From: a virus
Length of the DNA: 48,631 nt
Strand: one strand, 5' to 3'
Virus record (IMG/VR): IMGVR_UViG_3300030102_005119
Coordinates: 1 to 48,631 of that record
Under the pieces are notes generated by a model. That model did no database searches, was not told where the DNA came from, and worked only from the letters and a program-made list of their open reading frames with translations. This document shows, piece after piece, positions 12,001 to 48,018 of this stretch (positions within the stretch are counted from its first letter, which is position 1; every line of letters starts with the position of its first letter). Both the position numbers and the translations under genes were made by a program.

Positions 12001-15000
12001 CCCGGACCACCAAGGGTGACTGTGACTACGGGTGCGTTAGGCTCTATCTCCTTGACCACCTGTGAGTCCGGGCTTCCCTTGCCTCTCACATTGACTGACC
12101 TGTTGACTGTTGACTCTGTGAGACCCACACAGCGTACCGTGGTGAAACTGTCACCACCTTGATTGGAGTCCAGCACGGCCCTGATTCTGGCCCTGCTCAT
12201 GAGATACATCATGGTGATGTTGTTAGGCTCTTTGAAATCGGTAGACTGCGACCTCAATCCTGAGAGTTGGTTGATTCTTCTCCTATCGGAGGGTTGTATG
12301 AATACTCTCACGCTACCGTCATCTTGGAATTGATTGTCGATGATGTCGAACATCTCGTATATGTGTGTGCCAGAGGAAGTACCTGCCTTGTCGAACTCTC
12401 CGTTGGATGGTGACTGTATGACTTCGCTAGGCTCTCTCCTGAAGTACAGTCCCTTGTCTGTCAAGGAGTCGTTCTTGCTCCTGCTGGGTTCTATGACCAT
12501 CTTGTGGAACACTGAGTCGTGCTTGGTAGTGGGAGTATGGGAAGCGGTGATTATCTGTGGGGTTTTATTGGGGTGTGCGTTAGTGCCTATCCCTATGTAC
12601 AACTCCTCTCCATTGGTGACAGCAGCAGCACGGTTATCCGTGAGGGTGATGTTAGCCCCTATGCCTCCTGATGCTATTGTGCCTACGAATGCTAGGTCGG
12701 AGTTGTAGATGGCATCTCCCTCCGCTATGACGGTGCTTTCGCTGCTAGTGCCGTTGGTGGTGATGCTAGAACCTCCACCAGAGGCTTGGTCACCATCTAC
12801 AGTGATTCCAGTGGGTGTCATTGGTTTGTGGTTGATTGGTGTGAGGCTCTCGTCTAACTCGTCATCCGCCTCGTATCCCTCACTGACATCACCTATGAGG
12901 GAGTGGTTTTCTCTCAACGACCCCTTGAGTATCTCAGAATCTGTGAAGTCGATATATCCACCAGCGGCGAACACCTCTGACCTTATGGTGTTGGTTTCTA
13001 TTGCTGTCTTGATTAGGCTGAAGAGAGTGGTAGTGCCGGTGACTATGGTAGAGCCAGCAGGTACTGTCTTCTCCACCATGAGCAACGGTTGTACGACACC
13101 GCTCATGCTAGCCCCAGTCAGGTCTATCGCATTGTAGTAGACCTTGACGAAGGGAGCGAGGTTGTAGGAAGTCAGAGCGGGTATTCTGAGAAGCGCTACC
13201 CTGCTCTTCTCACTGGGTCTGAGATGAAGCCTGCGTGTCTCTGCGTTCAGATTGTTTAGGTCTTGTGGGACAGGTCCTTTCAGCATGAAGGGCAGGTAGT
13301 CGAAACTAGGACCGCCAATCGCAATCACCTCTTTCTCTGCGTCTACCAAGCCATTGTCGAACACCACTTGCGCCTCTGTCTTGTTGACTATCTCGTCAAT
13401 CAGAACTGTTCCTTGGTCTCTGTAAACGTCAACTCTGCTGTTGATTGAAATCTGGTCGGAGATACCACCCTTGGAGACATCGTACATTACGTCTATGATA
13501 TCAGCAGAGCCGTCTATTTGCTGGTCGATTATCTCCTCCTGCGCTCTTGGCATTAACTTCAGGAAGTCATGACCGTCAACGTGGTTGAGGGCATGCCTTC
13601 CACTGTGACCGACTTGGAAGGATGTGTCTACGTCAGTGGGCCAAGTGACTGCATATGCGTTATCTGAGGTATCTGTGGCCATTTTTGTTGAGTAGACGAA
13701 ACCATGCAGAGCATACGGACTCTCGTCAATGACCATCTGGCCCGTCCTGTCTATCATCTGTGTGGAATGATGAGGTGGTTGGTATGGTCTACCACTGGCG
13801 CTGTCTATCAATAGGTCAGCGCCGACGACTACGAAGTAGTTGTCAACTCCTGCTGTTCTGCTATGCAGAGCCTTGCGAAGTCCGTTGACCGAACTGGAGA
13901 AGTCAAGATGCACGCTGGAGACGAGGCAGTTACCAGTCGATGTGTTGATGTTGTGAAGCCTGACTCTCTCTGGTGGCTTGTTGTTGGGTTTGAATACGTC
14001 CCTGTCTGTAGCACCGGCGTTGATGAGAAGGTTGTATGGTGTGTGAGAGACGAAGTGTGTTGTTGGAGTACCTGTGTTCTGTAGATAGTTGACGACCTTG
14101 TAGTCCCCACCTGTGTACTTGTGAGTACCTGTGCTGTCCTTTGAGAATACGTAGTTACCTGATACCGTCTCCAATCCGGTGAGTTTCTTGGCTAGTTTGA
14201 CTGCATCAGCGGTACTGAGTGATATCTGGGATATGGTGACGGTCTCACCGTCCATGGTAGTGCCGTTGTCTGATATTGAGGAGAAGGTGTAGACCTCCTC
14301 TACAGGTGCTATTGGTTCTTCAAACCTATAAAGCAGCAACGTACTATCGCTGGCTATGGGTGCAGACCTCTCTAACGAGCCTTCCTCGAAGTTAGTAGAG
14401 ATGTGCAGTGACTCCATCACACCTCGAAATTGCCCTCCCTTTCCTCCTACATACACGTGTGCGTTGCCCTTGGCTATCTGTAGGGTTCTGTTCGGCAACT
14501 CCTTCGATGCCATCAACTCGCCATTGATGTAGAGTTCTATAGCACCAGTCCTCAATGCTGCCACTATGTGCATCAGGGGTCGTTGGTCTGTGTTGAGGGT
14601 AGTGGGGTCGTCGTATGAGCCGTTGTACTTGTTGTATGACGAGTGTATACCACCGAACTCAGAAGAGGGATAGACGACTCCCTCGTATCCTCTACCGGAT
14701 ACTTTGGTCGCTGTGGATATGAAATGATGCTCTTGTCCCGCATCAGTGTCGAGGAATACCTCGAAAGTAGCAGGGCCGGGCGTGTCTACCTCGCCTATTG
14801 ACAATTTGAACTGGTCTTCCTTCTCTACTACCACACCGCCGCAATCGGGTATGACCCAAGCCTCTATGCAAATCTGGGTGTTCAGTAGACCGGATAGTGA
14901 GCCTTCACCCTCTATGTGCTGCCTCTCACCCAGTATGTTTGCCTTTGACTTCGTTCCTGATGATGTCTCTTTTCCCAAGCGACTCATAGCGCCTTGCGGA

Positions 15001-24776: not shown

Positions 24777-25916
24777 TCACTTAAGGTCTCTGATGCTCCC
24801 TTGTCCTCCGAAGAAAGTGGTCCAAAGTTCTCCCATGGTCCTGTACATTCCCTCTTGTCCTAGTCTGTTGATTGCGAATGGGTCACCAGTCTCAATTCCA
24901 CTCTCGTAGTATTGTGTTGGTATCGCCGTGCTGAAGTACATGTAATCAGTGTCTAGGAAGTACATCCTGCTGATTACGTCTGGCTTGACATCCTTGGAAG
25001 GAATGATTGGGACTCCGTTGTAGGTTGCTACTACGAATCCGGCTTCCATTCCGGGTACACCCTTGACACCGTTGTAGGTCGGGGTGACTCTCTTCTCTTC
25101 CATGAACCTCTGCTGGGACTGTAGCAGTTGCTGTAGTCTCATCAGAGTGTCATATCCGGTCAAGATGACTTTCGGGTTTCCACCACGTACCCATATTTTC
25201 TGGAATAGGTCGTCTAGTTGGTCTAGGCTTAGAACCCTGTCAGTTGCACCGGTGTCTGCGTTTACCTCTGCGTATGACCAAGAGTTAGCACTGCCATCTC
25301 TGTTGATGGAGTAGATGTCCTCTCTGCCAGCAGTGTAGTGAGTTCCGGCTGTCATTCCAGTCGAGTCACCAGTGGTCACTCTGTCGATGGACTCGAAGCC
25401 GTTGTCTGCTGTCGTGTCCACGTCTAGTAGTAGCATCTTGTTGGTCATCTCTGCGTGGTGCTTACCCATCTCCTCTTTCAGGACCGAGCGTATGTCGCCC
25501 ATTCCGTCATCCTTGTCAGCAAGGAAGATAGCAGTCTCGGACATGTCGAACGTGTGAACGACCGTCTTTGGCTTTGCAGCCACGTGCTGGAAGGTAGGCT
25601 TCACTGTGTCTGGAAGGGTTGCGTTCTCTGCAACACCACCGTGGACTGCGCCTGAGTTAGGCTTGTCAGTGAGGACTCTCCATCCTGACCTGTCCCATGG
25701 CCTCTTCGGTAGTATGCTGAATGCATTGAACTCTTGGTTCATCTGCGACCATACTTTTCGACCATAGATTGCGTTGTATGTTCCACCAGTGGTGGACAAC
25801 ATTGGTGCGTCTGCTTTCAATAGTTCACTGCCGGAGTAGGAGTAACCCATTGAGTTACCTGCTCCGTAGTAGTATCTTTCCATATCTGTTACTGTTCTTA
25901 TGTAGTTTCTTGCCAT
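24777..25916 (-). CDS. Major capsid protein (HK97-fold type), 379 aa
   Basis: The ATG at 25916 follows AGGAGTGAT at ideal spacing, just after the protease-scaffold stop. The order protease-scaffold then capsid is the hallmark of HK97-like heads. The sequence fits: a helical N-terminal arm, a strand-rich region (GWRVLTDKPNSGAVHGG, TVKPTFQHVAAKPKTVVHTF), a long helix with DIRSVLKEEMGKHHAEMTNK (spine-helix-like), then PKVILTGYDTLMRLQQLLQ and strands AGFVVATYNGVPIIPSKDV. No large N-terminal delta domain is present, consistent with a separate scaffold domain carried on the protease. Shell formation is the expected role. Confidence 0.85.
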   Translation of the reverse strand: MARNYIRTVTDMERYYYGAGNSMGYSYSGSELLKADAPMLSTTGGTYNAIYGRKVWSQMNQEFNAFSILPKRPWDRSGWRVLTDKPNSGAVHGGVAENATLPDTVKPTFQHVAAKPKTVVHTFDMSETAIFLADKDDGMGDIRSVLKEEMGKHHAEMTNKMLLLDVDTTADNGFESIDRVTTGDSTGMTAGTHYTAGREDIYSINRDGSANSWSYAEVNADTGATDRVLSLDQLDDLFQKIWVRGGNPKVILTGYDTLMRLQQLLQSQQRFMEEKRVTPTYNGVKGVPGMEAGFVVATYNGVPIIPSKDVKPDVISRMYFLDTDYMYFSTAIPTQYYESGIETGDPFAINRLGQEGMYRTMGELWTTFFGGQGSIRDLK

Positions 25917-27367: not shown

Positions 27368-27398
27368 AAGCGGCAACAAACTAAACTGTTGTTGCTTC
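27367..27398. repeat. Imperfect inverted repeat at the junction of two genes
   Basis: Plus strand: gaagcggcaacaa, nine bases, then ttgttgcttc. The arms pair over gaag/cttc and gcaacaa/ttgttgc with a small bulge. It spans the stop of the 1826-residue gene (27381) and touches the TATA-like element. It may be a transcript hairpin that slows read-through or an operator for the capsid promoter. There is no clear T-tract. Confidence 0.45.
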
Positions 27399-30300
27399 TT
27401 TATCTGGGCCTGAATCTTCGTTTTTGATGCCCTTACCCCTCTTTTGTTGTCGCTTCATATGTGGATACGGCTTTTCATCATCTTCCGTGGGTCTTGCCCT
27501 CATGTCATAGTCGGGCAGGGTCTGCTCTCCGTCGAGCGTGGTAGGTCCTCTGGGACTCTCAATCTGAGCGCCTAGTTCTATACCGAGGCCTTTGCTACCG
27601 CTCATGGGGAAGTGTCCTTTCTCTAGGACATCCAGAACTCTGACCATGACACCGAGTGCTTTCTCCATCTGTGGCTTGAGTAGTTGATTCTTCTCTGCTA
27701 GTGTCTTGGCCTTGTCCTGAACTTTCTTCTCAGGTATGGGTCTCTTCTCCACTTTGCCCTTGAGCATCATGCTAGCGACCTGAGACCAGTATGGTTTGAG
27801 GCTCTCAGACAGCCTGATTGTGTAGTCTGACTCACCGAACTCCGAGAGAAGTGTGCGTGGTGAGTGAACCCAGTATCCCAAGTCGGACTTCTCTAGTGTG
27901 TAGAAAACGTCATTCTCAAGATACGTCTTGACAATCAAAGTGTTGTCATCTATGTCAACATCGTGTGGGAAGTGTAGGTTTGGTATGGACTTGGCTAGGA
28001 TGTTGAGTGTCTCCATGCTGACGCTGGACTCACCCTCTCCCTCTCCGACTATCTTGACTGGGTTCAGGTCGTATACTTCTCTGCCGTTGATTTTCTTTCT
28101 CTTGATGCCGGTGACCTCGACTTCCACAATCTCCCCTTCGTCAAACGATTTGGGGCTGGATACCGTACCTACGTCGAGATACACCTCTCCCTCGTAGTCA
28201 ACTGTGGCATTCTCTATGCCCTCATCGTCAATCAGAGGTCCTGCTCCTAGTCTGTATGTGATGCTCTTCTTGCCCCTCTTGTCGAGAATCCTGAGGTTGA
28301 CGTTCTTGTTCGGTCTAAGTAGAACCCACTTCGGGTGTCTCTTCTCTCCCTTCATGTACGTGCTCTTACCGTCTCTGATGAGTATGCAGTCGTGGTCCTC
28401 AAGCAGTGACTTAACCGTGTCCTCCAGACCCTCGTCGTCAGTCATGCGTGTGTCATGAGGTCCGGGCACAGTGACGTTATCGTATCCATCGAACTGCCCC
28501 CTGAGTATCTTCAGTCTCTCCTGTATGGTCATGTCTGTGATGTCAGAGTCATCGTAGTAGGTGATGTCGATGATGTGCAACTCGTCATCTGAGAGTATGC
28601 CGTCCAAGGTGCAGTCCTTCTTCCCTAGGTTCTTGACACCATCCTTGACCCAATCGGGTATGCTCATCCTTGAGTTGTGCTCGTTGTATGCAGATACCTT
28701 GTCGTTCAACTTCATGACCACGACCCTCTCGCCCTCGTACCACTTGGATACCACCCAAGAGCCGGTGAAGCCCCTGAGTTGATTCATGTCCTTGAAGTCG
28801 AATATCCTGTGCATGGGTCGTATTGGTGGTACGAAGTTCGGTGTGTCGTCCCCTTTCAGCATCAGTGAGTCCGGGTTGAGCAAGAACGCTGCGTAATCCG
28901 ATGGCTCGCTAGTCGTTATCGAGTAGGGTTGTTCCGCTGGTACAGTGCCGTCTGGGTAGACCATGTACTGGTTAGCACCCGTCATAGAGACGTTTTGGTC
29001 ATCGAGGCTCTGGACTGCTGCTGCCACTTCTCCCCCGAAATGCTGTTGGATGACTGACATGGGTACTGCGTGCATCGGTTGGGGAGCGGCTGTCGGACCT
29101 GACGTGAGTTCACCGAATGTGGCATCGAAGGACTCGGCTGGTTTCCTGAGTCTGTGATTGCTGTGGTCCATGAGTCCTGAGTATCCATAGAGGTCCATGA
29201 TAGGCGAGCCTTGTACGCCCATTGGGTGTAGTTCCCTTTGTCCGAAACCTATGGTCTCGCTCTCAATCATGTCAGGTGACGATGACAGGTCGAAGTTGGG
29301 GTCATGCACGAAGAGGTCCTTGCTCGCATGTTGAATGTAATTGGCTCGTGTGTCTATCCCACGGTTGCTCTTGTTTGCCTTGATTTTTGCGTTAGTGAGG
29401 GCAGAGCGCCTTTCCGTCCCTCTGCCTATCTCAGGCGCTGCGAAGTAAGTCAGACCTAGATTGTCCTGAACCTCCTTGGGAAGACTGTTGACCTGACCCC
29501 TGAGTCCCCTCATCTGGGACTCTATGCGCTTTGTGTACCCAAGTATGTCGTCTTTGGAGTACCCGTACTTCTCCTCGAACTCATCGTCGGAGACAGTGTG
29601 GTCTCTAGTAGATGCGAATATCTTCCCAGCATGGTCGTGCATGTGGTCTATGTCATCATAGCCCAAGAACATCCGTTGGTCTTTTCCTGCGTATAACTCA
29701 GGTGGGTTTGTCGTTATGGAGTTGAGGGACATCAACACCCTGTGGTCATCCTCGTTGTTCGGGTCGAGTGACGCTTTTATCGAATCCAACACGTTTCCAT
29801 AGTGTGCTGAGTGTGTTCCGTCCTCACCCATGCCTAGGTGCTTAACTAGGTCGTCCAGAGTTGTTTTCGAGTCTATTCTGAAACCGTGCTCTCGCATGTG
29901 CTCTGGTAGTCTGTGGAGTCCAGTCCTCTGCAATGGTGTCATCCTCTTATCTATGCCATGCTCCATCACTGTGAGGTTGTTTGTCCAAGTAGTGCCGTCT
30001 GGTAGTTCTATCTCCGCTCCCCTAGGTAAGTGCATCAAGACCATGTTGGCATCCCTGAACAGACCGTCAATCTCCGCATCCAAGTTGGGGTTGTCGGGAC
30101 TGAACGTACCCTCCGGCTTGAGTTGCTTGAGGACCATTGCCATCTGTTCAATTGCTCGATGATGGGAATGTATCCTGTCCATGTGCTGCCTCATCAGCGT
30201 GCCACCCATCCTATCATTCAGACCGAAGTGGTCTAGGAACTCTTCAACTGCCTCATCGTCACCAACCCTAGCACCGAATGAGGGGAGATTCAACTTGAGG

Positions 30301-32861
30301 GTGGATGGTGACAACCCAAACATACCGGCAGGTCTGCCACTACCGCCTCTTCCCATCATGGTCGCTATGGAGTGTGACCATATGTGTTGGTACTTGGAAA
30401 CTTGGTCTGGGTCTATCTTCTCCTCGTAACTATCCTGCACGTTGTCCCCTGTCGATAACTCCTCACCCGCTCCTATGGTTGCTGCTAGGTTCGTGCCACC
30501 TATGTCGGTCTCTTTCTTGACTGACCTCTTGTACCCCTTGCCATGTGGTATCCTTGAGTTGGTAGCACCGGATGAGTAGTTGGGCTTGTTGATTCTGTAG
30601 TTCTTGCCGTACTTCTCCACTAATTCCTCATCGGACAGTCTGGATATGACATTCACCAGACCGGGCGCTAGATGTGATAGGTTTGCGAGAATCTGATTCT
30701 TCGGGGTCGTGCCTTTTATTCCATGGACCTTGGTCTGACCGTACTTGGATAGTATGTTGGCTGGGGTGTTGAAGACACCACGCTTGTGGTTGAGGAAGGG
30801 AGCAATCAATCCTATGTTGAACTCATTGGGTGTTATTCGTTCCCCGTCTACCATGCCTAGGTGACTCTCACCATCTGCGTTTGAGAAGTGCCTGAATATC
30901 ATCTCCATCAAGGTATGTGGATTTCTACCAAGACCACCGGCAGCGAAGGCCGGAGCAAAGAAAGCACCGAGACCGTAGTGACCTGTGCTATCGGGAATCC
31001 TCAGGTCCTGCATGACCTCGGCCATCTCCGGGTCAATCTCGGACTCATCGAAGTACAGACCACCATGCAGGAGCATGTCGTTGCGTATGTCCTTGGCATC
31101 CTTACCTAAATCCCCTTGGGACTTGGCTTTGGCGAGCACCGACATGAGTGTGTCCCTGTCGAGCAGAGGACCTGAGAAGTTGGGATAGTGATGGTCATCA
31201 TCCTCGGTCATCTCAGTCATGTCCTCGTTGTATCCCAATGCGTAGAGAATCTCCTTCTTGGATAGCCTATCTCCGTGTCCTGTCCCTATTATGTCGTTGA
31301 TGGACTTGTCATAGTGAGAGGCTATGGCATCCTCCTCAGATGCACCCTCGTTCTTCTTCTGGTATCTCTTGATTGACCTCTCACTGTGCTTCGACAACTT
31401 GGGTAGGTGGTTGAAGTCCTTGTGAGCCTTGCCTGTCTCCTTGTGGAAGTGACCATCCTTGTCAAGACCGTTCTCGTCATTGGCTTTGACGAACTCCAGA
31501 CCCAGAGCCTCTCTGAGGTTGTCGTGTATGGTGTCCCTGTGCTCGAAGTCATCGTCATGTATTATGTCGTGGAGCGCCGAGAAGAACTCGTCCTTCTGGT
31601 TGTCAGAGAGTTGCTCTTCGTTGCTCTCCCTGCTAGGTATGATATTCTCGTTCGTAAAGCCATGCTGCCTGCCACCCCAGTTGGACATCGAGTTGAGTAT
31701 GTGTTGTGTTGACCTCTTTATCCTCCCAGAGGATACGGTTGTTCCATCTGGTAGTTTGATGTCTTGGTTTTCCACCTTGTCCAGTCCATCCTGCATCTTG
31801 TTCATTATCGCCGTCCTCTCTCTGGGGGAGAACCACTGTAGTTGGTGTATGAAACCACCAAGACCCAGATTGTATCCGTGGTCGATGGTCTCCGCTGGTG
31901 GCATCTTGCCTTCCTTGTCTGCGAGTGCGTAGTCGAAGGGCTGCTCCTTCACCTCGGTATCCACGTGCTTGTGATTCCAACTCCTAGCCCTGTCGTCTGC
32001 GTGTAGTTTCCTGAGAGCCAGTTCCTCCTGCGAATGGAAGTGTCCTTCTGGTATCTCGTCTGACAGTCCCTCTGCTCTGGCATCTGCGATAGCGCTTGTC
32101 CTCCAAGAGCCATCATGGTCTACCTCGCCGGTCTCAGGGTGAATGCTCTTCCACTCCTCGTCACCACTGAGCCAACGTTGGTAGTCCCTCTCGTACACGT
32201 CATGCATGGTCTTGAGCGATACGTCCTTCAGACCACCGAGAGGGCCAAGACCGTGGAAGTTCCTGACTGTGTTGCCCTCTAGGTCCAACTTCTCCATACC
32301 CTTGTGGTGTGGGCTGCCCTTCTTCCTGAGCATCCTGTCTTGTGCATGCTCCACCGCTGCTGATATCCTTCCGTGCGTCTTGTGGTTGGTGAGCGTAGGT
32401 AGCATCTGCCTGACCATCAACTCGTCTATGATTGAGCGCCCTGATGGTAGCATTCTCTTCGATGGGTCGTAGAAACTACTGAAGGGGTTGGACTTCGAGT
32501 CACCGTAGGGTGCTAGACCAATATCTGCGACCTCAAGGTCGTGATGGTGAGAAGCCCCTCTCCTCTTGACCCTGCCTCTCCAAGGTTGGTTTGTGGAGAG
32601 ATGCTGCTGGTTCTGCTCGGCTTGTATGGCTAGGAACTGTTCCTTCGGTATGTACGAGTTGCCACTGTAGGACATCTTCCTGACGAAGGAGTCGCATATG
32701 TTCTCCTTCCAAGTGATGTCGTTGGTGAAGCCGTCCTGCTCCATCACCGCTTTGGCGATGACATACTCCTCTATGCTCTCATCTACGTCTAGTCCGTCTA
32801 GTATACTGAGCAGGAGTTGTTCTCTTGCCTTTACGAACGTGGATACTGAGTCTTCATACAC
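27381..32861 (-). CDS. Giant head-module protein with DNA-ligase-like domain, 1826 aa
   Basis: The start is a GTG at 32861 after AGGTGG. Residues 1-1340 are His-, Asp- and Gly-rich with many short helices and no domain I recognise (HHHDLEVADIGLAPYGD near the start). Residues about 1360-1535 look like the adenylation domain of ATP-dependent DNA ligases: KWYEGERVVV (motif I region, 1373 on), TLDGIL near 1418, DITYYDDSDITDMTIQERLK, and DCILIRDG near 1492 followed by KWVLLRPNK. An OB-fold-like part follows to about 1610 (YEGEVYLDVGTVSS, then IVEVEVTGIKRK). Several catalytic positions differ from active ligases: the motif I Lys is displaced by one residue, Glu of motif III is Ile1422, motif IV reads Asp/Arg, and a motif V Lys is Leu. 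The C-terminus is basic. Lying among head genes, it may be packaged in the virion; that is inference. Confidence 0.85.
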   Translation of the reverse strand: MYEDSVSTFVKAREQLLLSILDGLDVDESIEEYVIAKAVMEQDGFTNDITWKENICDSFVRKMSYSGNSYIPKEQFLAIQAEQNQQHLSTNQPWRGRVKRRGASHHHDLEVADIGLAPYGDSKSNPFSSFYDPSKRMLPSGRSIIDELMVRQMLPTLTNHKTHGRISAAVEHAQDRMLRKKGSPHHKGMEKLDLEGNTVRNFHGLGPLGGLKDVSLKTMHDVYERDYQRWLSGDEEWKSIHPETGEVDHDGSWRTSAIADARAEGLSDEIPEGHFHSQEELALRKLHADDRARSWNHKHVDTEVKEQPFDYALADKEGKMPPAETIDHGYNLGLGGFIHQLQWFSPRERTAIMNKMQDGLDKVENQDIKLPDGTTVSSGRIKRSTQHILNSMSNWGGRQHGFTNENIIPSRESNEEQLSDNQKDEFFSALHDIIHDDDFEHRDTIHDNLREALGLEFVKANDENGLDKDGHFHKETGKAHKDFNHLPKLSKHSERSIKRYQKKNEGASEEDAIASHYDKSINDIIGTGHGDRLSKKEILYALGYNEDMTEMTEDDDHHYPNFSGPLLDRDTLMSVLAKAKSQGDLGKDAKDIRNDMLLHGGLYFDESEIDPEMAEVMQDLRIPDSTGHYGLGAFFAPAFAAGGLGRNPHTLMEMIFRHFSNADGESHLGMVDGERITPNEFNIGLIAPFLNHKRGVFNTPANILSKYGQTKVHGIKGTTPKNQILANLSHLAPGLVNVISRLSDEELVEKYGKNYRINKPNYSSGATNSRIPHGKGYKRSVKKETDIGGTNLAATIGAGEELSTGDNVQDSYEEKIDPDQVSKYQHIWSHSIATMMGRGGSGRPAGMFGLSPSTLKLNLPSFGARVGDDEAVEEFLDHFGLNDRMGGTLMRQHMDRIHSHHRAIEQMAMVLKQLKPEGTFSPDNPNLDAEIDGLFRDANMVLMHLPRGAEIELPDGTTWTNNLTVMEHGIDKRMTPLQRTGLHRLPEHMREHGFRIDSKTTLDDLVKHLGMGEDGTHSAHYGNVLDSIKASLDPNNEDDHRVLMSLNSITTNPPELYAGKDQRMFLGYDDIDHMHDHAGKIFASTRDHTVSDDEFEEKYGYSKDDILGYTKRIESQMRGLRGQVNSLPKEVQDNLGLTYFAAPEIGRGTERRSALTNAKIKANKSNRGIDTRANYIQHASKDLFVHDPNFDLSSSPDMIESETIGFGQRELHPMGVQGSPIMDLYGYSGLMDHSNHRLRKPAESFDATFGELTSGPTAAPQPMHAVPMSVIQQHFGGEVAAAVQSLDDQNVSMTGANQYMVYPDGTVPAEQPYSITTSEPSDYAAFLLNPDSLMLKGDDTPNFVPPIRPMHRIFDFKDMNQLRGFTGSWVVSKWYEGERVVVMKLNDKVSAYNEHNSRMSIPDWVKDGVKNLGKKDCTLDGILSDDELHIIDITYYDDSDITDMTIQERLKILRGQFDGYDNVTVPGPHDTRMTDDEGLEDTVKSLLEDHDCILIRDGKSTYMKGEKRHPKWVLLRPNKNVNLRILDKRGKKSITYRLGAGPLIDDEGIENATVDYEGEVYLDVGTVSSPKSFDEGEIVEVEVTGIKRKKINGREVYDLNPVKIVGEGEGESSVSMETLNILAKSIPNLHFPHDVDIDDNTLIVKTYLENDVFYTLEKSDLGYWVHSPRTLLSEFGESDYTIRLSESLKPYWSQVASMMLKGKVEKRPIPEKKVQDKAKTLAEKNQLLKPQMEKALGVMVRVLDVLEKGHFPMSGSKGLGIELGAQIESPRGPTTLDGEQTLPDYDMRARPTEDDEKPYPHMKRQQKRGKGIKNEDSGPDKEATTV

Positions 32862-33973: not shown

Positions 33974-35722
33974 TTATGCCCCACGAGGACGTTTTGCGTC
34001 CGAAATGCCCCTTTGTGCTCTTTGAACAGGTGACTGTTGAGGTCCTCTCTGTTGGACGTTGGAGAATGGTGAGCCTGCTCCTGCTGTGGCTCTCTGCTCA
34101 GGTCGTGCTGGAGGTGCGTTTCTGATGCCCATTCCCTCACCGCCGGGATTGGCTATTCCCGGTGGCATGCCCGGTACTCTCTGCATGACTCCGGGTGGCA
34201 TTCCGCCCGGTGGCATTCCGCCCGGTGGCATTCCGCCCGGTGGCATTCCGGGTGGCATTCCGGGTGGCATCATAGGCATACCACCGCCGGGTGGCATACC
34301 CTGTCCCTCCATCGGGTCTATCTTCTTGTATACGAAGCGGATGTCCCTCTCTCCCTCTTCAAGTAGTTCGGGTTTGTAGCCGAGCATCATCATTCGTTGT
34401 GCTAGGTTCGCTTCCATCTCGTCTCTCCTGAGTCTGGTTATCTCGTCTTCTTCCTCGTTCGGGTAGAGTGTCAGTTTCCAGTCGTTGACTCCCATCTCCT
34501 TGAGCATTCGTGGGAACATCACGTCTGTGTACACCTTCTGCCCGTACTCTACAGCACGGTTGGTAACGAGAATCTGCATGCCCTCGTTATTGAGACCACC
34601 ACTCTTGCCGTTGTCAATCATGAACACCGCCGACACACCGTAGAATGCTGCTATCCTGTTTCTCATTTCGTCACGGACAGCAATGTACTGCATCTCCTCA
34701 AGAGTGTCCATGAACTTAATCCAATTGACACCGCCTCTTCCACTGGAACTCTCGATACCGACCTTGGGGATGTAGTGTGGGTCTCTCTCCATCTTCTCAT
34801 CAACTGACTTCCAGAAGGACTTCATCGACTCTAGATTGTCTGTGGTTACCGATATGATGCCCTTGGGCGCTCTCCTCTTCTGGTATGATGTGTACATGTA
34901 GTTGTCCATGGCAGTGAGTGTCATGGCTTGTCTCCACATGGTGTTGACTGGGCTTCTCCCATAGAGTTTCGACGGGTTGTACTTGCTGACGTGGATTACC
35001 TCTCCCTTGAGGTAGTACTGGCTCTTGCCGCTACCGGCCATGTTGATGTAGTGAACGTCTTCCATCTGTCCACCGCAGACTTGGCAGTTGCCCTCTTGAC
35101 CGGGATAGGACACCTCTGTCCTGTGCAACGGGCAGACCTTGTACCTGCCACCCCTGACTCCCCTCTTGTCCGATACTATACGCATGAATATGGGGTCGCC
35201 ACGAATGAGTTCCTTGACTCTGAAGAACTGTATCTCACCGTCTTCTGGGTCTACGTAGTACTCCTTAACTATGATTAGGAAAGCGTCGTCAACTATGTTG
35301 AGGTCCTTCTCTATCTCATACAACACGTGCATGAAGTCCTGCTCCATTGAGTTCTGCTCCTTGAGAAGCCATCTTGGGTAGACAATCTCGTCTGCACTAG
35401 GTGGTCTAACTGGTGAGTCGCAGACATTGCAGATGTTCACATCGTGGTGATACTCCTCACCACAGGTGTCGCACTTGAATCTGAACTTCTTCTCCCAGAA
35501 GTACCCTCTCCTGAATATCTCCTGCTGTAGTTTGGATAGTACGGTTCTGAGAATCAGGTTCTCATGTGATACTGCGTATAACGCTGGTATGGTTATACCT
35601 TGAGCGAGAACTGGTTCTTGTATGCCAGTCGTGTATAACGGCATCTGTGGTTGAGGGGTAGTTCTCCTCTTGAACGGGTTCAGGGAATCTAGGAATCTCC
35701 TGACAGGACTCTCATCAGCCAT
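33974..35722 (-). CDS. Portal protein with two zinc ribbons, 582 aa
   Basis: The ATG at 35722 overlaps the previous gene and follows GGAGGGTGAT. The core matches phage portals: an N-terminal helix, KEYYVDPEDGEIQFFRV, EVIHVSKYNPSKLYGRSPV, a helical stem (LTAMDNYMYTSYQKR), and RDEMRNRIAAFYGVSAVFM followed by a Gly-rich turn. Two zinc-binding loops are inserted: C84-x2-C87 with C98-x2-C101, and C197-x2-H200 with C213-x2-C216. After residue 475 is a Met-Pro-Gly-rich segment of MPPGG-like repeats, then a basic tail. The portal forms the dodecameric vertex where DNA enters. Zinc ribbons may replace parts of the wing. Order after the terminase is as expected. Confidence 0.85.
   Translation of the reverse strand: MADESPVRRFLDSLNPFKRRTTPQPQMPLYTTGIQEPVLAQGITIPALYAVSHENLILRTVLSKLQQEIFRRGYFWEKKFRFKCDTCGEEYHHDVNICNVCDSPVRPPSADEIVYPRWLLKEQNSMEQDFMHVLYEIEKDLNIVDDAFLIIVKEYYVDPEDGEIQFFRVKELIRGDPIFMRIVSDKRGVRGGRYKVCPLHRTEVSYPGQEGNCQVCGGQMEDVHYINMAGSGKSQYYLKGEVIHVSKYNPSKLYGRSPVNTMWRQAMTLTAMDNYMYTSYQKRRAPKGIISVTTDNLESMKSFWKSVDEKMERDPHYIPKVGIESSSGRGGVNWIKFMDTLEEMQYIAVRDEMRNRIAAFYGVSAVFMIDNGKSGGLNNEGMQILVTNRAVEYGQKVYTDVMFPRMLKEMGVNDWKLTLYPNEEEDEITRLRRDEMEANLAQRMMMLGYKPELLEEGERDIRFVYKKIDPMEGQGMPPGGGMPMMPPGMPPGMPPGGMPPGGMPPGGMPPGVMQRVPGMPPGIANPGGEGMGIRNAPPARPEQRATAGAGSPFSNVQQRGPQQSPVQRAQRGISDAKRPRGA
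34190..34298 (-). repeat. 15-nt tandem repeat in the portal gene
   Basis: On the plus strand the unit ggtggcattccgccc repeats three times exactly and then continues in shortened form (ggtggcattccg). It encodes the MPPGG repeats of the portal C-terminus. Near-perfect DNA identity suggests recent expansion by slippage. Confidence 0.85.
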
Positions 35723-36940: not shown

Positions 36941-38419
36941 TCAGGGTATTAGCCACCCTCCGCCGGGCTGTTCCTTCCCGCCGAACATGTCATCGAAGCC
37001 CGGCATATAATCATCTAGGAGGACAACCGTTCCCTTGAACTCCTTTGATGCCCAGTTAGCGAGAGCCAGACTCATCGCCAAGTCGTCATGCACACCGACG
37101 CTCTCTAGCCTGCCGTTCTTCTGCATGCCGAAACGATTGAGTTGCATCTCCAACTCATGTGTGTACTTGCGACTTCTCTCGTCACCGTATGGAAGTTTGA
37201 TGTGTCCTTGCTCGAATGCCAGCAATAGTGACATGAACAACGACTCCTTCTTGGCTCTGGTCGTCATGAACACACGAATCGGCATGTCTGCTGCCATCTC
37301 CCTCATCTCCTGCTCCAGCATCCTCTGGAAGTTGTTGCCCTCAAGTTCTATCAGTTCAGGATTGAACTTGCTGTTGAGCATGACCATCATCCTCTTTTGC
37401 GCCATCGAGGACATACCACGCTCGTGCACCACGTGCACTATCTCCTTAAACTCCTCATCCGGCTTCTGACGCATGACAGTCATGGCGGTGAAGTCAGCGT
37501 TCTTGTCAGAGGATATGGCTGGGTCGTGCCCTATGAAGTGCTGTCCGAACACCCCATCAGCCTCCCCTTCTTCGTTGTAGTTGGTCTCGGCCCTGTCAAT
37601 CAGCACGAGATTCGGGTCTCTAGCCACCTCAAGAATCTCCATGGGGAACATGCTGGCCACATCGTGGATAGGCTCGCACAGGTACTCACGGCTGAATTGT
37701 ATGGCTGGCATGGAAAGTCGCCTCTGCTCCAGTGCCTCTATGTTCCAACGCTCAGGCCAGAGTGCCACTCCCTCGTTGTTTATCGCTGGGAACGTCTCCA
37801 CACGGAAGGTCTCCTTCTGCTCCAACTCCGCATACAGGTCGTTGTAGGAGAACGGCGTTCCGACCATCATGAGTTTGCTGCTGTGGTGCAGAACAGGTAG
37901 AAGGACACCGTAGAACCAGTCTGCTGTCCTCTGTAGTTCTGTGCCGCTAGTCCCCCACAGGATGTCGTCGCACACAACCACGTCAGGGTGGAAACCACGA
38001 GTAGCACCACCGACCGACTTGGCCATGATACGAGAGCCGTTGGAGAACTCGAAGTACGATTTCGCCCAAGGCCTACCCTCTGGAATGAGGTCTCTCAGAC
38101 AGTCCGTCCTGTCGATGTTGCTTTTTATGAAACGCATGTGCTCAAGCGTCTGCTCAAGGGAGTGTGAGAAAATCATGATGTGCTTGTTGGGAGTGAATGC
38201 GGCTAACCACAGTGCGTATGTCATGAAGAACACGGACTTACCGTGGTCACGAGATGCCTTCACGCAGTAGTACTGCGACTCCTCAAGCCCGTTCTTCCAA
38301 GACTCGTGGTGAGTGTTGAACAGGAAGCCGAGTATGTCCACGAAGAAGTACTCGAATGACTTCCTGCACATCTCCTTGTCCATCTGGATGATGAAGTCAT
38401 CCATCGACTCGTCGCTCAT
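36941..38419 (-). CDS. terL: Terminase large subunit, 492 aa
   Basis: The packaging motor of the virus. ATPase domain: Walker A SRDHGKS (56-62), Walker B VVVCDD (147-152) and coupling motif VGTPF (186-190). Nuclease domain: Asp299 in GHDPA, Glu360 in ELEGNN and the D445/D446 pair in VHDDLAMSLALANW, together the usual metal-binding acidic triad of RNase H-like terminase nucleases. Length is typical. The ATG overlaps the previous stop as ATGA. All catalytic residues appear intact, so it should be active. It would cut concatemers and drive DNA through the portal encoded two genes downstream. Confidence 0.95.
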   Translation of the reverse strand: MSDESMDDFIIQMDKEMCRKSFEYFFVDILGFLFNTHHESWKNGLEESQYYCVKASRDHGKSVFFMTYALWLAAFTPNKHIMIFSHSLEQTLEHMRFIKSNIDRTDCLRDLIPEGRPWAKSYFEFSNGSRIMAKSVGGATRGFHPDVVVCDDILWGTSGTELQRTADWFYGVLLPVLHHSSKLMMVGTPFSYNDLYAELEQKETFRVETFPAINNEGVALWPERWNIEALEQRRLSMPAIQFSREYLCEPIHDVASMFPMEILEVARDPNLVLIDRAETNYNEEGEADGVFGQHFIGHDPAISSDKNADFTAMTVMRQKPDEEFKEIVHVVHERGMSSMAQKRMMVMLNSKFNPELIELEGNNFQRMLEQEMREMAADMPIRVFMTTRAKKESLFMSLLLAFEQGHIKLPYGDERSRKYTHELEMQLNRFGMQKNGRLESVGVHDDLAMSLALANWASKEFKGTVVLLDDYMPGFDDMFGGKEQPGGGWLIP

Positions 38420-44192: not shown

Positions 44193-44462
44193 TTACATTC
44201 GACTTATTCTGGTGTATATAGTGCCAAGTCCCATCATTGACACGAAGATGGCAATCATGGCCATTGAAGCGTCTGTCTGACTTATGTCAGCAGCCTTGAA
44301 CACCAAGACGAAGAGCATGACGAGTATGGCACTGATGAGTTGAATCATCACCATGTCGATAATCACGCTTCTCCTGTGTGTGAAGAGGTTGAGCGAGAGG
44401 TTAGCCACTTGGTTCGGTACTCCAAGAGGGAGTGAACTTCTACCACTTGGTCCTGACATCAT
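44193..44462 (-). CDS. Small membrane protein, 89 aa
   Basis: A GGAGGACC site precedes the ATG at 44462. Two hydrophobic helices are visible: MVMIQLISAILVMLFVLVF (about 37-55) and MAMIAIFVSMMGLGTIY (about 67-83), joined by a short polar loop. Holin-like in size and topology, but nothing else supports lysis. It is the last gene of the accessory block. Confidence 0.7.
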   Translation of the reverse strand: MMSGPSGRSSLPLGVPNQVANLSLNLFTHRRSVIIDMVMIQLISAILVMLFVLVFKAADISQTDASMAMIAIFVSMMGLGTIYTRISRM

Positions 44463-44464
44463 AA

Positions 44465-45094
44465 TCAGGTCCTCCCGAATAGTGCTCTGTTGAACATGCC
44501 ACCAACTGCCTGCCCTGCGCTTTCCATCATACCGGGGTCAGAGAGTGCGGTGTTGAGCATACCCTGCATTAACGACTGGTCTGCCATCTGTAGAATCATC
44601 TGTCTCTCCTGCTCTGCCTGTTGGATTATCTGCATGGATGTGTTCTGTAGGCTGTTGAGTTGTGCTATGATATTCTCAGCACTGAGAGTCTGTAGGTCGC
44701 TTGGCATGGAAGTCACATCGAGTGAGAGACTACCAGTGTCCTCGTCCATGGTGAAAGTCGCATTCTTGAGGACATTCAATAATGAGAATGTAGTGATATT
44801 GGATAGCATCTCGATGAACACAGGCATGTTCTGACTGATGATGAACTTGTCAATCGGTTGGATTGTAGCAAGCATCGAAGCCAGAATCTGGGTCTCCGAG
44901 GGCGGTGCTACTGGAGCGTTGTATTGTTGGGGGGATATGCCTGCGCCCCCTAGAATGCCACCTACCAACGGTGATGTTCCGTATCCGTTGGTGTACTGCT
45001 GCTGCTGTTGTCCGAAAGCGTTCGGTTGAGAAGCACCTAGACTGAGAGAATTGCCGTTTTGGGCGCTTCCTAGATTTGAAAGCCCTAGTGTCAT
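44465..45094 (-). CDS. Gln/Asn-rich protein with coiled coil, 209 aa
   Basis: ATGA overlap with the previous gene. The first 65 residues are low complexity (NAFGQQQQQYTNGYG, Gly/Pro-rich). A helical middle follows (LASMLATIQPIDKFIISQN, TTFSLLNVLKNATFTM), then a long coiled coil (ENIIAQLNSLQNTSMQIIQQ and beyond). Function unknown; the low-complexity head suggests an assembly or scaffold role. Confidence 0.62.
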   Translation of the reverse strand: MTLGLSNLGSAQNGNSLSLGASQPNAFGQQQQQYTNGYGTSPLVGGILGGAGISPQQYNAPVAPPSETQILASMLATIQPIDKFIISQNMPVFIEMLSNITTFSLLNVLKNATFTMDEDTGSLSLDVTSMPSDLQTLSAENIIAQLNSLQNTSMQIIQQAEQERQMILQMADQSLMQGMLNTALSDPGMMESAGQAVGGMFNRALFGRT

Positions 45095-46122
45095 TGTACT
45101 ACCTCTGCTGGATTTGCTGTTGTTGCTGCTGTAGGCACTACCGGTGGTGGTGTCTGCACAGTCGGAGCGGGGTTCAGGGTTTGAGCCTGTTGGTTGAGAA
45201 CGGTGTTGAATGCCTGTTGTGCAGCCAACTGTTGCTCTTGAGCCTCTTTCTGGAACATTCTCATGTCGAATTGTATCATTGTGATGTCATTGCTACCAGT
45301 ATCAGGGTTGGGAATGTGCCAGACATTGATTCCCTTCGTCTTGTTGGAGTCCTTCTCAATCTCTTGGAAGAAAGGCTCGTACTTCTGAACTAGGTCAGGC
45401 GCTCTGGTCTCAGTAGTTTGCAGTGATGATACCGGTATGGTGACCAGACTCACTCCTTTCTTCACCTTGTCCTTGAACCTGCTTGGTCTCATCTCGTCTT
45501 CCTTGTCTTGAGCGTCTTCCCATTTGCAGAGTAGGTGGTACAGATGTAGATGTTCAGGGCAGTATGTCCCTTTGAGTGTCTTCCCACTGGTCACACCGCT
45601 TCTTGCTAGGAATGCCTCGGTCTGTCCTGAGATTGGATTCTGCCAGTACATGTCCCAGAGGCTTCTACCTGTGTCTTCGTCTGTTATTCTCGCATAGAGA
45701 TTGTCGTATTCTATGAGTTGCTTGCAGTCACAACCATCAACTACGCACGTCCCACTGTCCTTGGTGTATCTGTACGGGCTTCCCAACCATCTTCTTGGGT
45801 CTAGGATAGACCTCTTAGTGGGTTTGAGAAGTTTGTATGCCTGTTTGATGTCCTTCCTTCTGGCTTTTCTTGGGTCAGCGTGGTTGGATGGGTAGAAGTT
45901 CACCTTCGGAACTTCAAGGTTCTTTTGAGTCGCTATCTGTTGCATCTGCTGTTGTGCTATTGCTTGCTCCATTATAGCCGCCTGATTGAACTGTGGGTTG
46001 CCCATTTGGGCCATGTTCATCATCGCTGCGTCGTTTAGGTTGCTTAGGCTCTGAGTCTGAATCGGAGTTCTTGTTATCGTGCGGTACATGTTATCGGGTA
46101 CATCTAAGAGGCCGCCTACCAT
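45091..46122 (-). CDS. Cys/His-cluster protein, about 343 aa
   Basis: The ATG at 46122 overlaps the AbrB stop as TGATG after GGAGGGTGA. The first 65 residues are Met/Gln/Asn-rich coil. The central domain holds a Cys cluster (C126, C131, C133, with CVVDGCDC) and a second cluster CPEHLHLYHLLC (C188-C199), so it could bind one or two zinc ions. A basic region (KARRKDIKQAYKLLKPTKR) precedes it. The C-terminus is Gln/Ala/Pro/Thr-rich. No family recognised. Confidence 0.66.
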   Translation of the reverse strand: MVGGLLDVPDNMYRTITRTPIQTQSLSNLNDAAMMNMAQMGNPQFNQAAIMEQAIAQQQMQQIATQKNLEVPKVNFYPSNHADPRKARRKDIKQAYKLLKPTKRSILDPRRWLGSPYRYTKDSGTCVVDGCDCKQLIEYDNLYARITDEDTGRSLWDMYWQNPISGQTEAFLARSGVTSGKTLKGTYCPEHLHLYHLLCKWEDAQDKEDEMRPSRFKDKVKKGVSLVTIPVSSLQTTETRAPDLVQKYEPFFQEIEKDSNKTKGINVWHIPNPDTGSNDITMIQFDMRMFQKEAQEQQLAAQQAFNTVLNQQAQTLNPAPTVQTPPPVVPTAATTANPAEVVQ

Positions 46123-46307
46123 CACTCACCCTCCGCTGGTGTCACATGAATAGACATTTGCCCATTTTCTGCCGATAATCGCCATTCTACCTTGCTACCG
46201 GCAGTCATGCCGAATTGCTGCACAATCCACATGGGAATGGTGGTCCGAAGTGAGTTGCTACCCCCTCCTGTCGGAACGAGAGTGGTGGTGGTCTTACCCT
46301 TGGCCAT
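46122..46307 (-). CDS. AbrB/SpoVT-type DNA-binding regulator, 61 aa
   Basis: The frame extends upstream to 46385, but that part overlaps the GTPase gene; the ATG at 46307 gives a compact domain. The sequence SNSLRTTIPMWIVQQFGMTA followed by GSKVEWRLSAENGQMSIHV is the swapped-hairpin AbrB pattern: a first strand, a T-I-P turn, a short helix, a G-x2-x-G-x2-V strand and a final strand. AbrB-fold proteins bind DNA as dimers and are common in archaea and their viruses. It may regulate genes of this block. Confidence 0.8.
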   Translation of the reverse strand: MAKGKTTTTLVPTGGGSNSLRTTIPMWIVQQFGMTAGSKVEWRLSAENGQMSIHVTPAEGE

Positions 46308-46342: not shown

Positions 46343-47056
46343 TCAAGAGGTCAAGAGTTCTACTAGGGTTGGTTCGACGTTCCAACCCACACGAGTGGCC
46401 ATGAAAGCACGCTTTGTTGGAAGCCTCGCTTTCTGCAATCTAATCAGGTCATCTCGGAACGGGTCGAATATCTTGTGTTCGCCTATTCTGTTCTGCTGCC
46501 AGAGTTCAGCGGCCTTCTTGTCGAAGAACCTGTCTGCCTTATTAGCCACCAACATGAGCATCCTAGGTGTGTACTTCTTCCCCTTCCATCTGCTTCTGAG
46601 GGTTCTGTATCTGTAGTCCCTCTGAATGAGCCTGTCTACGAGATACTTGAACCCGGCAACTTGCTCTGCACCCTCAGGACCACCAGCGAAGGCTCTGTCA
46701 TCGAACACGTACATGACGCACTCCACCTGTCTGGCTACCATATCGTCAATCCACAGATTCCAGAACCTCTCTTGCCCACCTATGTCTGCTGAGTATACAA
46801 CTCTCTTCTCGCCTTGCCAAGATATTCTCTTCCTAGTCGGTTTGGGCAACATGTATCTGGTGATTAGTTTGAAGTGTTCTGTTCTCTCATCCTCTGCTAT
46901 CTCTTCCATCTCGCCGGGTGTGGTCATGTACCTGTCGAGAGTGGTCTTGCCGACCATGCTAGTACCATATACTCCGACTCTTCTTGGCTTCCATGCATTG
47001 TAGAGGTGTTGTCCGTATATGGCTACACCGACGAGTACGCTCCCTCCACCTACCAT
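46343..47056 (-). CDS. Membrane-anchored Ras/Arf-type small GTPase, 237 aa
   Basis: The ATG at 47056 follows AGGTGAG. All main GTPase motifs are present: P-loop GTSMVGKT (31-38), G3 DIGGQE (91-96, Arf-like rather than Ras-like) and G4 NKAD (172-175). A candidate G5 is ATR near residue 220. An N-terminal hydrophobic segment (SVLVGVAIYGQHLYNAW) followed by basic KPRR could anchor it in a membrane, as in the signal-recognition-particle receptor beta subunit. The motifs look intact, so it should bind and probably hydrolyse GTP. Its neighbours upstream are two membrane proteins. Small GTPases are rare in viruses of prokaryotes. The role, perhaps acting on the host membrane or protein targeting, is inference. 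Confidence 0.85.
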   Translation of the reverse strand: MVGGGSVLVGVAIYGQHLYNAWKPRRVGVYGTSMVGKTTLDRYMTTPGEMEEIAEDERTEHFKLITRYMLPKPTRKRISWQGEKRVVYSADIGGQERFWNLWIDDMVARQVECVMYVFDDRAFAGGPEGAEQVAGFKYLVDRLIQRDYRYRTLRSRWKGKKYTPRMLMLVANKADRFFDKKAAELWQQNRIGEHKIFDPFRDDLIRLQKARLPTKRAFMATRVGWNVEPTLVELLTS

Positions 47057-47065
47057 TCATCTCAC

Positions 47066-47326
47066 CTAGTTGGGCAGTTGAGAGTAGAGCCAGTCAGCAA
47101 AACCCTCGACCTGCTGATATGACCACTCGACTGTCCAACCCCAGAGAGTGAAATCGGTGTATGATTCAATCGCACTGACTGCTAGTGACGCTCCTAGTGC
47201 TGCAAGTATTGTTCTAAGCCATCCAACACCCCATTCGTAGGTATTGTCCACCGTGTTTGCCAAGTGCATGGCACGCAGTGTCTCTTCTACTGAGTCGTCC
47301 TTGGGGGTCTTGAATATCCTGCCCAT
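47066..47326 (-). CDS. Single-helix membrane protein, 86 aa
   Basis: TGATG overlap with the previous stop. One hydrophobic helix (WLRTILAALGASLAVSAI, about 36-53) follows a charged N-terminus (RIFKTPKDDSVEETLRAMH). The C-terminus is Trp-rich and amphipathic (FTLWGWTVEWSYQQVEGFADW). It is directly upstream of the membrane-anchored GTPase and may be its partner; no family is recognised. Confidence 0.7.
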   Translation of the reverse strand: MGRIFKTPKDDSVEETLRAMHLANTVDNTYEWGVGWLRTILAALGASLAVSAIESYTDFTLWGWTVEWSYQQVEGFADWLYSQLPN

Positions 47327-47964
47327 CAGTTATCGCCGCTGCTGTTCTTGTATCTAAGGTCTGGTGTCCCATCCTTCTTTAATCGCACATTATCGGATGA
47401 AATGTCCCTAGGGGGAGTCACGGATTGCTCCAGTATCTCATCTGCTAGCGAGTCCAGACCGAAACTCCTTGCTTGAGTGACGTTCGCACTGTGTGATGGT
47501 GGTTTTGATGTGTTGAACAGGTCAACTCCCAGACCTGATACCGAGGATTGGCTGTTTGATGCCATTGATGGTGGCATCTTGCCCGGATTCTGCTGCATCC
47601 AAAGCAGTTCTTTCTCCAACTGCATCTCCTGCATTCGTAGTTCCATGTCTGCACGACGCTGGTCGTAGTTGAACTGCTGCTCTCTGAAGCGGTAGTCCCT
47701 CTGCCTCTGCATCTCTGACATCCTGACTCGCTCCTGCATCTGCTCCTCAAAGAACATCTTGAACAAGTAGTACGCCAGAATCTGAATTGCCAATGCCCCC
47801 ATAGCATATGTCATTCCGTTGACGTATTGGTTTGCATTCTCTCCACCGGGTAGCCACAATCCAGCATCGTAGATACCTATTGCGACCCCCACTAGAGCCG
47901 ACTGGGTTAGTATCAACCCGGTCAATCTCATTTCCGATTTATCCGAAGGGTCTTGTCTGCTCAT
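47326..47964 (-). CDS. Two-helix membrane protein with coiled coil, about 212 aa
   Basis: The frame is open from a GTG at 48018, but the ATG at 47964 has GAGGT seven bases upstream, so I prefer it. Two hydrophobic helices (LTGLILTQSALVGVAIGIYD and MTYAMGALAIQILAYYLF) are followed by a long charged coiled coil (EEQMQERVRMSEMQRQRDYR and beyond) and a disordered polar tail. It looks like a membrane-anchored scaffold. It begins the run membrane protein, membrane protein, GTPase. Confidence 0.7.
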   Translation of the reverse strand: MSRQDPSDKSEMRLTGLILTQSALVGVAIGIYDAGLWLPGGENANQYVNGMTYAMGALAIQILAYYLFKMFFEEQMQERVRMSEMQRQRDYRFREQQFNYDQRRADMELRMQEMQLEKELLWMQQNPGKMPPSMASNSQSSVSGLGVDLFNTSKPPSHSANVTQARSFGLDSLADEILEQSVTPPRDISSDNVRLKKDGTPDLRYKNSSGDN

Positions 47965-48018
47965 CTTAGTGACCTCTAGAAAGACCCCACGAGGGTGGCT
48001 ATCATAAGCCTTCTGCAC

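Follow-up and report, generated by a model that had tools for sequence, protein, structure and literature searches.

The stretch analysed here, which we call the window, is the IMG/VR virus record IMGVR_UViG_3300030102_005119 at its full length (positions 1 to 48,631; 48,631 nucleotides). On its minus strand, an open reading frame (ORF) at 46343–47056, with its ATG at 47056 and its stop at 46343, encodes a protein of 237 amino acids (aa) which, judged by sequence and structural model together, is almost certainly a Ras-superfamily small GTPase, belonging to a deep-branching viral family. The gene is a near-invariant core gene of a large lineage of marine tailed viruses. Along the protein the motifs run in the order GTSMVGKTT, DIGGQERFWNLW, NKAD. 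With coordinates derived by hand from the start at 47056, the G1 motif (P-loop, GTSMVGKTT) covers residues 31–39 (46940–46966, minus strand), the G3 motif DIGGQE, at the start of DIGGQERFWNLW, covers residues 91–96 (46769–46786, minus strand), and the G4 motif NKAD covers residues 172–175 (46532–46543, minus strand). An earlier note on this DNA had listed GTSMVGKT, DIGGQE and NKAD in this order; the motifs were found so, and they are kept across relatives beyond chance.

Searches with single sequences were nearly silent. Pfam Roc matched the window protein at E 0.0067 and NCBIfam small_GTP gave E 0.079 (P0001) and 0.0021 (one relative), all below cut-off, while nothing was matched to the GTPase in PHROGs or among 50,697 phage records. 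Routine annotation could therefore have left the gene unnamed.

Ahead of the G domain lies a hydrophobic N-terminal helix (residues 3–22 in the AlphaFold2 model), which is followed by basic residues. Its Kyte–Doolittle maximum over 19 residues, 1.08 for the window protein and on average 0.96 for the family (n = 39), falls short of the 1.5 used here as the cut for transmembrane segments and gives no support for a confident transmembrane segment. The helical moment averages 0.31, with a mean of 0.22 and a 95th percentile of 0.42 for shuffled sequences. In the Arf family, GTP binding frees an amphipathic helix at this end of the protein (the interswitch toggle); the viral moment stays below the 95th percentile of the shuffles. 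The helix is thus a candidate for the N-terminal membrane anchor suggested earlier.

Conservation of the GTPase family

The earlier note had proposed a search for the gene in related viral contigs. In IMG/VR, 160 stretches bear the search pattern and 158 of them encode relatives; the best 80 of these 158 are 67–98% identical, and a degenerate DNA pattern extended the family to 55% identity among the matches listed. Conservation counts rest on at least 128 distinct relatives, and spacing counts on the 126 that are full-length, the other two of the 128 being clipped at the locus end and excluded.

NKAD is present in all 128 relatives, as is the G3 pattern DxxG, in the form DxGG or DxAG and with its Asp invariant. 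The 126 full-length relatives carry GKT[TS] at G1, in agreement with the GxxxxGK[ST] consensus. Between G1 and G3, the Thr of an RTxH motif is likewise invariant (128/128), in a region, switch I, where model confidence is low. A G5-like motif, MAT[RK]-x-GW-x-V, whose likeness to SAK/CAT was judged by eye, is found in 126 of 128 relatives and begins 47 residues after NKAD in 125. DxGG and the LW pair are retained across the family, and a basic stretch, YRYR...KGKKY, is conserved as well. The residue following DxGG/DxAG is Gln in 72, Glu in 43, Asp in 11 and His in 2 of the 128. The nucleotide-contacting motifs thus appear, from their sequences, to be under strong constraint, with the usual catalytic Gln unfixed.

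The motif spacing, which the earlier note took to be normal, is not: it is constant within the family, but long. From the first Gly of G1 it is 60–63 residues to the G3 Asp and 139–144 to the G4 Asn, as against mostly about 43–49 and 100–111 residues in our cellular panel. The main exception in the panel is an Asgard group with DCPGD or DNPGD at G3 (59–61 and 133–135 residues). This group (L387, L388, L399 and L477) has a spacing nearly as long as that of the viral family; L387, the one member tested, is matched by Pfam Arf, EF-Tu and SRPRB alike.

The GTPase has a median identity of 73% to the protein of the window; the corresponding values are 77% for the terminase large subunit (TerL) and 30–64% for nine other genes of the surrounding block. 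After the terminase, the GTPase is the best conserved gene of the block.

Predicted fold

The final AlphaFold2 model, built from 39 family sequences, has a mean predicted local distance difference test score (pLDDT) of 75 and a predicted template modelling score (pTM) of 0.77; it replaced an earlier model from 13 rows, with a pLDDT of 58.9. It predicts a single G domain. Foldseek against the PDB returned 902 chains at E ≤ 1e-3, and the 50 listed are all Rab, Rho/Rac/Cdc42 or Ras. In VIA-align, where rows within 1 Z were counted as ties, the top match is Arl8b (Z 13.7, 159 aligned, 3.0 Å), followed by the G chains of two tubulin-cofactor entries (Z 13.2), which we take to be Arl2, by LokiRagO (13.0), Asgard GerdArfR1 and HodArfR1 (12.8), Arf1 (12.5) and a mimivirus Rab (12.0); 997 of 1000 chains reach Z ≥ 8. 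Among viral models there were 30 matches at E ≤ 1e-3, all named for giant viruses of eukaryotes or environmental samples thereof. The family profile gave weak matches only against PDB sequences, with best E-values of 0.22 and 0.23.

AlphaFold2, Foldseek and VIA-align thus bear out, at the level of fold, the small-GTPase assignment made from the DNA. Best matches to an unrelated P-loop family, which had been named as grounds for abandoning it, did not appear, and such a family is ruled out by the fold matches together with the profile controls given below.

Affinity to cellular GTPases

A profile search of 195 Asgard genomes returned one true family member, on an 8-kb contig (L082) in an Asgard metagenome-assembled genome (MAG); because its gene order is viral, this is most likely a misbinned viral contig. 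Next came Arf-domain proteins with DxGGQxxFWxLW, at E-values down to 1.5e-7. Profile–profile comparison by hhalign placed this Arf-domain FWxLW group first (99.0%, E 2e-18), followed by a RasL set (97.2%), the DCPGD group (97.2%), another Arf-domain group (97.1%), a third GGQ group (96.2%), ArfR-type rows (94.2%) and Rag (90.5%); Era/Der rows (31.5%) and IF2 rows (2.7%) scored low. Three unrelated alignments (capsid and two neighbours) served as controls; set against six small-GTPase groups (18 comparisons), none exceeded 1.2%. In a small blastp panel, a divergent viral member matched the Asgard protein L386 at E 2e-13 (30% identity over 169 residues). L386 lies above the Pfam Arf cut-off, which viral members do not reach (of 13 scanned, 2 match, with a best E of 0.12); Pfam SRPRB matched none of the family members scanned. 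Since the Asgard rows were partly chosen by similarity to the viral profile, the apparent nearest neighbour is biased.

All trees were built without eukaryotic sequences and without Poseidoniales genomes. In them the viral proteins form one clade (support 100) on a very long stem of 2.6–3.3 changes per column. A quick tree, which included 12 of the 39 family rows, set this clade beside the FWxLW Asgard group with a Shimodaira–Hasegawa-like approximate likelihood ratio (SH-aLRT) support of 88. A more careful tree, without the second ORF of L409 and the DMPGL rows and with every second RasL and viral row thinned, put it near several groups without resolution, outside the RasL clade (100/100). 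Approximately unbiased (AU) tests failed to reject joining the viral clade to RasL (p 0.262), to ArfR-type rows (0.158) or to Arf-domain FWxLW rows (0.467). Firm placement in Arf, Ras or SR-beta was tried and given up, as the two trees and the AU tests left it unsettled. With Ras-like and ArfR affinity both unrejected, "Arf" here denotes resemblance rather than membership, and the viral family is fairly described, on the evidence of its sequences, as a deep lineage of small GTPases that has Arf-like features without being a placed member of Arf. Of the Arf/SR-beta type earlier ascribed to G3, the Arf-like DxGGQxxFWxLW signature stands, while SRPRB goes unmatched in the members scanned. A phylogeny, which had been proposed as a check, gives one deep viral clade and no decision by AU tests among Ras-like, ArfR and Arf-domain relatives.

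Comparison with known systems helps to delimit the family. The Asgard Arf-domain proteins (L386, L389–L393) share with it the G1 motif and DxGGQxxFWxLW and are its best profile and blastp matches; unlike it they are cellular, about 290–330 aa long, extended by about 100 aa at the N terminus and normally spaced in their motifs, and a clade of the two is neither shown nor rejected. The Arf/Arl/Sar proteins and Asgard ArfR resemble it in fold (Arl8b, Arl3, Arf1 and ArfR1, Z 12.5–13.7) and in GGQ...LW, whereas the viral proteins have a longer switch I/interswitch and alpha3–beta5 region, fall short of the Pfam Arf cut-off and do not conserve the Gln. According to PMC12554972, eukaryotic Arfs stem from Asgard ArfRs and are distinct from Ras.

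Rag proteins carry a C-terminal roadblock-type domain. Rag/Gtr and LokiRagO match the viral fold (Z 12.6–13.0), but the 237-aa viral protein has no room for such a domain, and its profile match to Rag is among the weaker ones. MglA is also a prokaryotic single-domain small GTPase; its G3 Asp is replaced by Thr, according to PMC3000849, whereas the viral family keeps this Asp throughout and has no MglB-like match among nine neighbours scanned with Pfam. MglA identity is ruled out by the G3 Asp and the lack of an MglB (roadblock) match among these nine neighbours. The Rab, Ras and Ran genes of giant viruses (e.g. the mimivirus Rab, PDB 5xc5) are likewise virus-borne and of the same fold, but those viruses have eukaryotic hosts and genes named for Rab, Ras or Ran, whereas here a core gene of tailed viruses is of another type.

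The surrounding gene block

Gene order around the GTPase was compared over 83 loci (80 from IMG/VR, the window and two MAG contigs). Two membrane-protein genes, an AbrB-like gene and the next three genes are each present in 82 or 83 of them. All features of the window named in this section lie, like the GTPase gene, on the minus strand. Adjoining the GTPase, at 47066–47326 (82/83 loci), lies a gene whose 86-aa product has a single hydrophobic segment and, in its N-terminal part, the conserved stretch GRIFKTPxDD...TLRAMHxANTxD; the GTPase start lies 9 bases past the end of this gene. Sharing one base with it, the gene at 47326–48018 (82/83 loci) encodes a protein with two hydrophobic segments, a long charged stretch that is probably coiled-coil, and a C-terminal LKKDGTPDxRYK. 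These hydrophobic segments accord with the two membrane proteins that the earlier note had placed immediately upstream.

On the other side of the GTPase come an AbrB/MazE-like small protein at 46122–46307 (82/83 loci; Pfam MazE_antitoxin E 3.6e-4, below the curated cut-off) and a conserved 344-aa protein at 45091–46125 (83/83 loci). The latter has an invariant C127 and C189-PEH-x-H, a putative zinc site, and found no match among PDB sequences. A conserved 209-aa protein at 44465–45094, assigned to the same block by synteny, and an 89-aa protein with two hydrophobic segments at 44193–44462 (82/83 loci) follow. Further downstream in the same direction are TerL (36941–38419), the portal protein (33974–35722), a protease and the major capsid protein (MCP; 24777–25916); matches to phage records give Druskaviridae haloviruses as the nearest named relatives of the portal and HVTV-1 and HCTV-1 of that family as the nearest of the MCP. 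That the genome is that of a tailed virus, as first read from the DNA, is confirmed by these genes. TerL lies downstream on the GTPase strand in 76 of the 83 loci.

Two large ORFs of the window may be recorded here. One, at 3–15065, has at least 5021 codons and runs off the end, and possibly encodes a giant tail or adhesin protein. The other, at 27381–32861, encodes 1826 aa where HVTV-1 has a long ORF annotated as zeta toxin, and its product has a weak DNA-ligase-domain match (E 0.0033).

Virus lineage and host

A profile of the MCP led to 80 loci, and the records of 28 of these were scanned for the GTPase. It was present in 19, at 19.8–24.0 kb from the MCP locus. Five GTPase-negative marine records end 0–12.8 kb past the MCP locus, short of that distance, so that all 19 marine MCP records reaching the expected site carry the gene; it is absent from four halovirus-type records (102–104 kb) with a related MCP. 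The earlier view that a GTPase of this kind is not standard viral cargo thus fails for this lineage, where it belongs to the core.

Both MCP and portal have their best matches among phage records in the Druskaviridae haloviruses. DNA polymerase B (PolB) and a Cpn60/TCP1 chaperonin occur in all 16 long relatives (85–116 kb, chosen among GTPase carriers other than the window), and the one chaperonin tested lies above the thermosome_beta cut-off. In two records (G016 and G020, those of L215 and L223), the PolB match is split over open frames of 471 and 349 aa. Profiles of the International Committee on Taxonomy of Viruses (ICTV) describe magroviruses as having PolB and an affinity to Druskaviridae (PMC12999244, PMC10768690), and PMC5332604 describes putative viruses of Marine Group II as forming a clade with chaperonins of archaeal type. 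Magroviruses (Magrovirales, infecting Poseidoniales) thus resemble this lineage in being tailed, in PolB and chaperonin, and in an MCP and portal near those of Druskaviridae. From the MCP and portal affinity and the PolB and chaperonin of its relatives, the window is most likely a magrovirus fragment, and its host is probably a member of the Poseidoniales, which are single-celled archaea.

The magrovirus literature searched, including both ICTV profiles, does not mention such a GTPase, although we do not claim that the gene is unreported. Searches by term of PMC10160649, PMC8651126, PMC5332604 and PMC5628999 likewise brought up no magrovirus GTPase. Binning has placed two contigs of the lineage, L082 and L083, in an Asgard MAG and in a MAG of Maricaulis respectively, a trap for claims of a host-borne GTPase.

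Tagged proteins in the flanks of related loci

In the GTPase flanks of 59 of the 80 loci, 161 ORFs open with a common tag, mostly M-x(2-3)-F-[DEN]-x-[AS]-W-x-[LVFI]-L-K. Beyond the tag these ORFs fall into 55 blastp clusters at 1e-3, with up to 7 clusters in a single locus. By a looser count over the 80 loci and the window, 174 occurrences of the motif lie near a start codon, as against 12 in other places; on the GTPase strand, 176 lie upstream of the GTPase and 7 downstream, despite more downstream sequence being covered. The window itself has none. Tagged flanks 5′ of the GTPase are seen, for example, at L058:118–2781, L060:380–8907 and L062:1522–9016. A tag shared by unlike proteins is a possible packaging or targeting signal, by analogy with the capsid-targeting signal of T4. 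Ten proteins from the tagged flanks found no Pfam match. Some tagged ORFs (L009 from 898, L058:2308–2781 and others) contain YHGTT...GVYAT and look ADP-ribosyltransferase-like by eye, with no Pfam match for the one tested, and ORFs with YEVGPRDGLQ (L060:1925–2794, L062:3798–4643 and L058:2782–3630) look by eye like HMG-CoA lyase, an enzyme that appears in the aoguangvirus profile.

Possible function of the GTPase

We propose that the GTPase acts as a membrane-coupled switch together with the two membrane proteins whose genes lie just upstream, a claim that we regard as evenly balanced. The products of the three linked genes would act together, the two membrane proteins building a site at the host cytoplasmic membrane and the GTPase docking there through its hydrophobic N-terminal helix, through partner proteins or through both. 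GTP binding would then reorder the enlarged switch I and interswitch, so that a partner is recruited or released, and hydrolysis would reset the switch, probably aided by another protein, since Glu or Asp often stands in place of the catalytic Gln. The constraint on the motifs would argue for real nucleotide cycling, and the fixed trio with membrane-protein genes together with the hydrophobic helix argues for action at the host cytoplasmic membrane. As the genes run head-to-tail with packaging and capsid genes, the step is taken to be a late one, assembly at the host membrane or release through it; this part of the proposal is tentative, and we lean somewhat against it. As a whole, the explanation, in which a core small GTPase serves late in infection as a membrane GTP switch with two membrane proteins, seems to us a little short of an even call.

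Several observations weigh against this proposal. Gene neighbourhood is all that would tie the GTPase to membranes and to late steps. Its N-terminal helix is neither a clear transmembrane segment (1.08 < 1.5) nor clearly amphipathic, which makes docking through partners equally likely. AlphaFold2 confidence is low at the P-loop and switch I (residues 31–50) and at both ends, and the catalytic Gln is kept in only 72 of 128 relatives. Pfam matches single members weakly (best E 0.0022 over 13 members), and four divergent members have no Pfam match at 0.01. The Pfam scan of nine neighbours found no GTPase-activating protein (GAP), guanine nucleotide exchange factor (GEF), roadblock or longin.

The gene order that suggests a late step would also fit a factor in assembly or packaging, where the GTPase would be a checkpoint or chaperone for portal, terminase and capsid and the membrane genes mere neighbours. 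Strand and order are shared with TerL, portal, protease and MCP in the window and with TerL in 76 of 83 loci, conservation of the GTPase almost equals that of TerL, and the basic stretch YRYR...KGKKY could contact DNA; however, the four halovirus-type records make do with a related MCP and no GTPase, and it is the two membrane-protein genes that occupy the 5′ side of the GTPase in 82 of 83 loci. We hold such a role to be unlikely. Membrane action could also take the form of an SR-beta-like receptor that steers host protein targeting so as to insert viral membrane proteins, and the hydrophobic helix ahead of the G domain, the basic residues after it and the three small membrane proteins of the block would suit this. 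Yet the helix is under the usual transmembrane hydropathy, no SR-alpha-like partner is found among the neighbours scanned and SRPRB fails to match any member scanned, which makes this reading decidedly improbable.

Slightly less improbable than the receptor, and still quite unlikely, is a switch for host takeover, delivered in the virion or made on entry, that would act on the small-GTPase pathways of the host (polarity, division, vesicles) as a decoy or a dominant regulator. The Ras-superfamily fold and the packaging-signal-like tag on 5′-side genes of related loci speak for it, but the GTPase bears no tag and sits among structural genes. A degenerate GTPase, a structural scaffold that does not cycle, would account for the long stem in the tree and for the 56 of 128 relatives in which the Gln after DxGG has given way to Glu, Asp or His; but essentially every relative retains NKAD, the G3 Asp, the Thr of RTxH and the Lys/Thr of the P-loop, and we think this reading more improbable still than the SR-beta-like receptor. 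That the gene is an artefact of a chimeric contig, or a cellular gene at a contig end, was worth asking of a gene 1.6 kb from the end of the window and would have overturned the earlier note. The same block recurs in 83 loci and the gene lies in 19 records reached through the capsid gene; the chance of an artefact is negligible, and a chimera or stray host gene is ruled out by this synteny and record-level presence.

Significance

In eukaryotes, membrane traffic is usually switched by small GTPases, and Asgard archaea encode many of them. The viral structural matches found here come from giant viruses of eukaryotes, and the present GTPase belongs to marine tailed viruses. It is possible, if in our estimate doubtful, that magrovirus-type tailed viruses own an ancient and independent Arf-like branch outside eukaryotes and Asgard archaea, used with two dedicated membrane proteins as a membrane switch in assembly or egress. 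The membrane-coupled switch proposed above is readily testable, the GTPase being small and single-domain with two candidate partners encoded alongside. The family adds a deep branch to the small GTPases, whose early history is debated. In so widespread a marine lineage, a core and strongly constrained GTPase would, if the proposal is true, show the dependence of a prokaryotic virus on such a switch and would offer a way into the question of how viruses are assembled in archaeal cells and get out of them. Our findings suggest that a GTP switch associated with membranes may operate even in tailed viruses that infect microbes.
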